Shown here piece by piece: positions 1,424 through 2,677 of a stretch of 64,000 bases of DNA. Each line of letters begins with the position of its first letter. The stretch's first letter is position 1. The translations under genes were made by a program, and so were the position numbers. Source of the stretch: Cylindrotheca closterium (taxonomy: Eukaryota; Bacillariophyta; Bacillariophyceae; Bacillariales; Bacillariaceae); contig CAKOGP040000668.1 in the NCBI GenBank assembly GCA_933822405.4, positions 124,001-188,000 on the forward strand, read 5' to 3'. The notes below the pieces were generated by a model. It was not told the origin of the DNA. It saw only the letters and a program-made list of their open reading frames with translations, and did no database searches.

Positions 1424-2178
1424 GAAAAAACAGAACTCTTAATTTTTTATTTGTGTGGCTGGGATGATGGAACAGTTTTATTGGAATAAGATGATCTGAG
1501 AAAACATCAGAGGTTTGATGTGTGTGTGTTTCAGCCGAGGCGGCGTTTCACCTTCTCCTTCCGCCTGCCGTACCATGCACCTACGAAATGTACTGAGAGG
1601 ACCCGAACCGATCGACTAAAAGTGTCAGATAGTGACGTGTGACGTCATACAGTAGTTCCAATTTGCTTCCGCCGGAAAGCACTCTCTTCATTCCTGTTGT
1701 CACCGCTCATACTACCGTGATGCGGCTCAAGATGATGGACTATTCATTAGTAGAAATAGAATAAGGTTAACCTTGTTAAACTAATTGTATCCGTTACGCA
1801 AAAGTAGAAACTGAAAAGCGTGTTTACAACAAAAAGAGGAAATCAAATGCAGGATACAATCCAAATCAAGGTTGTTCTCTCGCCAAAACCAACTCGATTT
1901 TTGGATTGTAGCCGTAGCACTTATATTCTCAGACAGTGGTATTCATTCATTCATCCGGCCAGCAAACATCAGTTGCAGGCTTTCGTCACGAATGTACCTA
2001 GTGTCGTCATTCCGTTTCCTTATTTCTTGTTTCATCACATCTTATCATCTGAACATCTTTGGCATAAAATGATGGTACAGTATAGCTCCTATGATATCGG
2101 CATATCAAGAGTTCCAAAGAAAGGAGCAAAAGACACAGAGATACCCATAAAAGCCGTACAAAGTACCCTCGTTCCAAA
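1424..2178. other. Intergenic region with selenoprotein 3' flank
   Basis: No credible coding frame is seen. The right part must contain the 3' UTR of the minus-strand selenoprotein W gene. An 11-bp perfect stem (TACAATCCAAA paired with TTTGGATTGTA, 1855-1865 with 1900-1910) encloses a second short stem, but it lacks the canonical ATGA quartet and the apical AA of a eukaryotic SECIS element. Confidence 0.5.
1855..1910 (-). other. Long hairpin in the 3' flank of the selenoprotein W gene
   Basis: On the minus strand an 11-bp perfect stem closes a 34-nt interior with a second GTTG/CAAC helix. A TGAT sits at the 3' side of the internal junction, as in a SECIS core, but the opposing 5' strand reads TCGA instead of ATGA and no unpaired AA is seen at the apex. 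It lies about 270 nt past the stop. It is recorded as a structural element only; a SECIS role is unproven and the core mismatches argue against it. Confidence 0.3.
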
Positions 2179-2677
2179 CTAGTTGGAATCAAGGTACTCT
2201 TGAATGAACTCCACAATCATTTGTCGCTCCTGTGCCGACTCTGCTTTGCCTTGGCCAGCAGTGCGCTTGGAATGGATCAATTGCTTGTTGTCACCGATAC
2301 GAATTTCAAAGTTGCCTGTAGCACCAGGGTCTTTGATGCCCATCACTTCAATGTCATTGGCAAAGGATTGTTCCGAAAGGAACTTTTCCAGCGAGAGAAA
2401 TTGCCTCTTGTAGCCTGTGAGGATGAATGATGAGTGATGAATGGTCATGGTTAGTGTCATGGTATATAGAGAAAGTCAGTAGGGGAGCATGATGCGAAGT
2501 CATTGTAATGATGGTAACACGGGCTGCAACAGAATTGGATGCATGCAAAGAAGTCAACGATAACATACTCTGTTCTTGTTGCAAGAAAGAACCACGGAAA
2601 AATGATGAAATCACTTAAGCAGCACCATAAAACTCACCTCATCCGCCACAGTATTGTACTTCCACTTTAGCTACCAT
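2179..2677 (-). CDS. SELW: Selenoprotein W (Rdx family) with in-frame TGA selenocysteine
   Basis: Two exons: 2638-2677 and 2179-2414, separated by a GT-AG intron (donor G|GTGAGT, acceptor CACAG|GC). The product is 91 residues, close to the usual 85-95 for SelW. Exon 1 encodes MVAKVEVQYCGG followed by TGA (2639-2641), and the splice restores GYKRQFLSLEKFL. This gives the thioredoxin-like C-x-x-U redox motif (C10, U13) directly before the family-typical GYK. The rest fits the Rdx fold: GATGNFEIRIGD followed by LIHSKRTAGQG and a C-terminal helix. SelW proteins are small cytosolic thiol redox proteins. Ordinary gene calling would read TGA as a stop and start inside the intron. A SECIS element is required downstream; none was identified with confidence by eye. 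Confidence 0.9.

Follow-up and report, generated by a model that had tools for sequence, protein, structure and literature searches.

A gene for selenoprotein W (SelW) was located on the minus strand of the 64,000-nucleotide stretch of Cylindrotheca closterium DNA analysed here (contig CAKOGP040000668.1, positions 124,001 to 188,000; hereafter the window). With high confidence, it is read from its sequence as a functional SelW gene that a diatom-like alga carries in single copy and whose UGA would be translated as selenocysteine (Sec) once 2638 has been spliced to 2414. The start codon is an ATG at 2677, and the redox motif is encoded by TGT GGC GGA TGA (2650-2639), the Cys codon TGT occupying 2650-2648. 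After the TGA, exon 1 closes with a single G at 2638; the donor GTGAGTTT begins at 2637 and the acceptor ...CATCCTCACAG ends at 2415. The joined exon junction reads TGAG/GCTACAAG, where the slash marks the intron here and below. Splicing yields a protein of 91 residues (MVAKVEVQYCGGUGYKRQF...) with Sec as residue 13 in the context C-G-G-U-G-Y-K. The frame of exon 2 (78 residues) was found to be free of stops or other defects. Six combinations of donor and acceptor were tried, and only 2638/2414 left the frame open past the TGA; a message that retained the intron would read GEFYGAA and then stop, seven codons past the TGA. When the protein was used to query the genome (47.6 Mb searched), a single match was obtained, the window gene itself.

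The first-pass annotation had proposed a CxxU motif with an in-frame TGA and a junction at 2415-2637, and both are borne out by the spliced frame and by the junction common to the relatives. It had also placed the donor immediately after the TGA. The TGA is indeed the last full codon, but one more G precedes the intron, which is in phase 1. The proposed anatomy of the gene is correct, and so, very probably, is its interpretation. The coordinates of all features are collected in Table 1.

Table 1. Features of the SelW gene and of related loci (window coordinates unless a contig is given)
Feature	Location	Strand	Remarks
SelW exon 1, coding part	2638..2677	minus	MVAKVEVQYCGG-U, then G of split Gly codon
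In-frame TGA, putative Sec codon of the C-G-G-U motif	2639..2641	minus	spliced reading frame
SelW intron, phase 1	2415..2637	minus	223 nt, GTGAGT...CACAG; starts one base past TGA
SelW exon 2	2179..2414	minus	GYKRQFLSLEKF...EYLDSN + TAG stop; TAG = 2181-2179
Best SECIS-like candidate, weak	1938..1998	minus	3' UTR; pattern score 36.0
Very stable 3' UTR hairpin	1845..1922	minus	z -4.60; one match in genome
tRNA-Sec genes L005-L009	C168:176390-176933 and C124:482957-483042		
GPX L015	C26:64838-65089	minus	
GPX L018	C560:65410-65640	minus	
SECIS, Sec insertion sequence; UTR, untranslated region.

The junction was examined in 123 distinct related proteins, the main search contributing the best 120 of 500 matches. 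Most belong to unnamed metagenome contigs; the named sources among the matches listed were Nitzschia inconspicua, Cylindrotheca fusiformis and a Bacillariaceae metagenome-assembled genome. Scoring was possible for 93 of the 123 proteins in the stretch ahead of the GY with which exon 2 begins. The other 30 show no upstream GY pattern and mostly start inside exon 2, with P0102 and P0108 as two unscored proteins that do carry upstream residues (P0108 reads ...TTDYGKYY, D replacing G). Five of the scored relatives (P0001, P0037, P0041, P0043 and P0065) run continuously through the junction with W at the Sec position, four of them as CGGW-GY and P0041 as WGGW-GY. The remaining 88 are read-through sequences whose homology ends exactly at GY. 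The residue before GY was codable by NNA, the phase of an AG/G acceptor, in 88/88 of these, versus 66.5% of the other residues in the same N-termini (p about 3e-16 if the relatives were independent, which they are not). Three read-through proteins, P0009, P0061 and P0095, consist of exon 1 (CGGWG or WGGWG), the translated intron and exon 2. Two relatives, P0007 and P0008, bear the label 'predicted Rdx family selenoprotein' in their source. Viral contigs were scanned for exon 2 and no relative was detected in them. The relatives thus appear to share the position of the intron and, in some cases, probably the TGA as well. Since both flanks derive from one family and the junction recurs in this way, it is beyond what chance would give.

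The codons at the Sec site of the relatives were deduced from the protein letters. The starts of four proteins (P0006, P0007, P0022 and P0108) correspond to (V)DEV when exon 1 is read in the +2 frame, in which the window gene gives VADEV. Such DEV starts would imply GGA-YGA-R/GT, and hence a TGA, or an implausible CGA, at the Sec codon. Eight relatives with starts of the form MR[Y/L/S] were not used as proof of a TGA, because TGC gives the same letters. In P0041 and P0061 W is present at the Cys position as well (WGGW), which suggests, as far as the translated letters go, UxxU forms of SelW; forms of this kind have been reported for Ostreococcus lucimarinus and amphioxus (in the available part of PMC7539508).

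Members of the SelW family are small thioredoxin-like oxidoreductases. Membership of this family, likewise proposed in the first annotation, was confirmed by profile searches in which Cys was typed in place of Sec. The spliced protein matched the Pfam family Rdx (PF10262) with E 7e-11 and 42.6 bits (cut-off 22.6), the NCBIfam model TIGR02174 (SelT/SelW/SelH) with E 1.5e-14 and 54 bits (cut-off 34.2), and PDB entry 2npb, a solved selenoprotein W, with E 4e-8. A whole-genome search with the Rdx profile did not list the gene, because the exons were scored separately; a search with the full protein did list it. The likeness to SELENOW (Rdx PF10262; 2npb) lies in a small thioredoxin-like protein with an N-terminal CxxU followed by GYK and an Rdx profile match, whereas the position of the only coding intron, one base past the Sec codon, is the difference. 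SelT and SelH belong to the same superfamily, as the TIGR02174 match indicates, and the SelT found in this genome carries CVSUG. In contrast to that SelT, the window protein is shorter, is without the long insert and has a GYK context of the SelW type.

Sec-containing SELENOW is known in algae, where SELENOW is present and about 80% of the family members contain Sec, according to the part of PMC7539508 that was available; an intron one base past Sec is not described in that part, and the source places splice structures in its database. The open reading frame of Ciona SelW1 lies within one exon (PMC2874816, in excerpt), and the 16 selenoproteins given for Thalassiosira pseudonana do not include SelW (PMC2375036, in excerpt). 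The protein is of a known kind, and the intron position common to the relatives is the unusual part.

Judged on tRNA-Sec, SPS2 and SepSecS, the genome appears to carry the Sec machinery. Five tRNA-Sec genes with a TCA anticodon scored above the Rfam cut-off, and four of the five form a tight tandem array. An SPS2 gene is present, with its own TGA in G-U-A-C-K, and a SepSecS gene was found. A second SepSecS match (L024; C1:402433-403017, minus strand) is interrupted by one TGA, possibly through intron read-through. In ten genes examined besides SelW, SPS2 among them, a TGA stands at the Sec position expected for the family. Five GPX genes have it at the catalytic position (for L015 and L018 this depends on a splice that was read by eye), and a sixth GPX match, on C529, is without a stop. 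SelT reads CVS-TGA-G, one MsrA reads ACG-TGA-YW (ACGUYW) and a SelM-like gene reads G-TGA-SLNR. The end of TrxR reads GGC-TGA-G (GCUG), the matching pieces scoring below the cut-off of the TrxR model. The genome also holds a Cys-type Rdx protein with two tandem Rdx domains, YCTGCRW and YCTGCKW (C2:182588-183282).

Several observations weigh against the translation of the SelW UGA as Sec. Among the relatives, the W found at the Sec position of eight proteins stands for TGA under code 4, or for TGG. Three others with the same intron (P0034, P0070 and P0106) read DVV, which implies Cys (TGT, or CGT); Sec would therefore not be universal at this site. No SECIS was returned by Rfam at a permissive threshold between 1300 and 2700, and RF00031 gave no match in the whole genome (133 of 915 candidates scored). 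In one scan the best SelW score was 19.2 against a shuffle median of 19.6. The best SECIS-like candidate, at 1998-1938, obtained an energy score of -16.4, and a score of -16 or better was seen in 12 of 128 background chunks; on the energy scan it was outscored by two unclear controls, GPX L016 and the SelM-like gene.

The absence of a SECIS call is uninformative, since Rfam missed the element in six control selenoprotein loci too and three of seven controls did not rise above shuffles. A pattern scan was compared with 100 dinucleotide shuffles; the SelW UTR had a best score of 36.1 and beat 92 of them (8/100 reach it). GPX L014, GPX L015 and SelT (L003) beat 100/100, with elements 126, 115 and 141 nt past the stop, respectively. 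The SelM-like gene (L020) beat 98, at 772 nt, and GPX L013, L016 and L018 beat 84, 60 and 15. SPS2 (L022) was left out of the control set because its stop was not located. Eight home-made SECIS scans with differing rules were run besides window folding, and from such a number a chance candidate is easily picked.

The 1998-1938 candidate consists of GTGA, 11 nt, AA, ... GGAT, a 3'-side GA and a stable lower helix (GGTA/CATTC : GAATG/TACC). A distance of 11 nt from GTGA to AA is the usual SECIS spacing. Its folding beat 200/200 shuffles (z -3.62, for a stretch chosen after looking). It is absent from the rows listed by four other scans, and the element of SelT is absent from those listed by two energy scans. 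The SelW candidates, with offsets of 189 and 468, are not significant when each is taken alone. The 1998-1938 stretch is treated as a weak lead to a putative SECIS. The hairpin at 1845-1922 was rejected as a canonical SECIS, its 5' strand being without UGA. Four elements could not be aligned by structure with MAFFT, and for this reason no covariance model was made. Reports exist of algal selenoproteins for which no SECIS was predicted (PMC6627142, in excerpt). In mammalian SelW the SECIS is placed in a separate last exon (PMC3316567, in excerpt), so that an intron in the 3' UTR is possible in C. closterium SelW too.

In the proposed mechanism, splicing of the pre-mRNA at 2638/2414 would set the UGA of CxxU beside the exon 2 GYK. 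During translation, a SECIS in the 3' UTR would bring in Sec-tRNA(Sec) for insertion of Sec at the UGA, and the product, by analogy with the family, would be a small oxidoreductase of the thioredoxin-like type with C-G-G-U in its active site. Should recoding fail, nonsense-mediated decay of the exon-junction-complex type would not be expected, as the sole coding junction lies one base past the UGA and none follows 50-55 nt further on, an intron in the 3' UTR being the possible exception.

A true stop at the TGA, leaving a decayed SelW pseudogene or a peptide of only 12 residues, would agree with the lack of an established SECIS, but it is highly improbable given that the start, both splice sites and exon 2 are all intact, that the junction is common to the relatives and the TGA probably to some of them, and that the genome has Sec machinery. 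Slightly less credible still is an Rdx protein without Sec, produced by alternative splicing or another start that skips the TGA as in the public model P0102 of Nitzschia inconspicua, since five relatives are continuous through CGGW/WGGW-GY, just one of six junctions keeps the frame and the catalytic residue would be lost by skipping. Translation of the UGA as Sec after splicing remains the preferred reading.

The expectation of the first-pass annotation that conventional gene models would lose both the start and the redox centre holds among the relatives. The predicted starts of 85 of the 123 are intronic or out of frame (the 88 read-through proteins minus the three that keep exon 1); these are mostly mechanical predictions on metagenome contigs. 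Model P0102 (IV203_031552) has ...QYCGG-GLKKW..., in which the Sec and the residues that follow it are missing, and is likely a misannotation. Because the Sec codon abuts the intron, the start and the active site of SelW tend to drop from models.

An intron appears to be close to the Sec codon in 4/11 genes including SelW, a suggestive outcome of an unplanned and small comparison. Read by eye, the intron seems to lie one base before the TGA in GPX L015 (AA/A-TGA), two bases before it in GPX L018 (C/AA-TGA) and probably seven bases before it in the SelM-like gene. The frame is open across the TGA in SelT, GPX L013, L014 and L016, SPS2 and MsrA, and the TGA of TrxR is two codons from the stop. 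In the C. closterium lineage, Sec codons may be places where introns cluster. A neutral cause would be that UGA followed by G makes an AG/G proto-splice site. It is doubtful, though conceivable, that the SelW intron has been kept by selection and not merely inherited, with UGAG forming the exonic half of the donor (UGA-G/GU) and the junction either shielding the UGA from exon-junction-dependent decay or coupling splicing to recoding. In the open-access literature, as judged by titles and abstract openings, no paper was found that deals with an intron held constant at the Sec codon of SelW.

The finding draws attention to a set of algal SelW genes whose models tend to lack the start and the active site, and it would correct those models. 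SelW also provides a natural setting in which to ask whether mRNA decay or the efficiency of recoding is influenced by a junction directly behind a recoded UGA.
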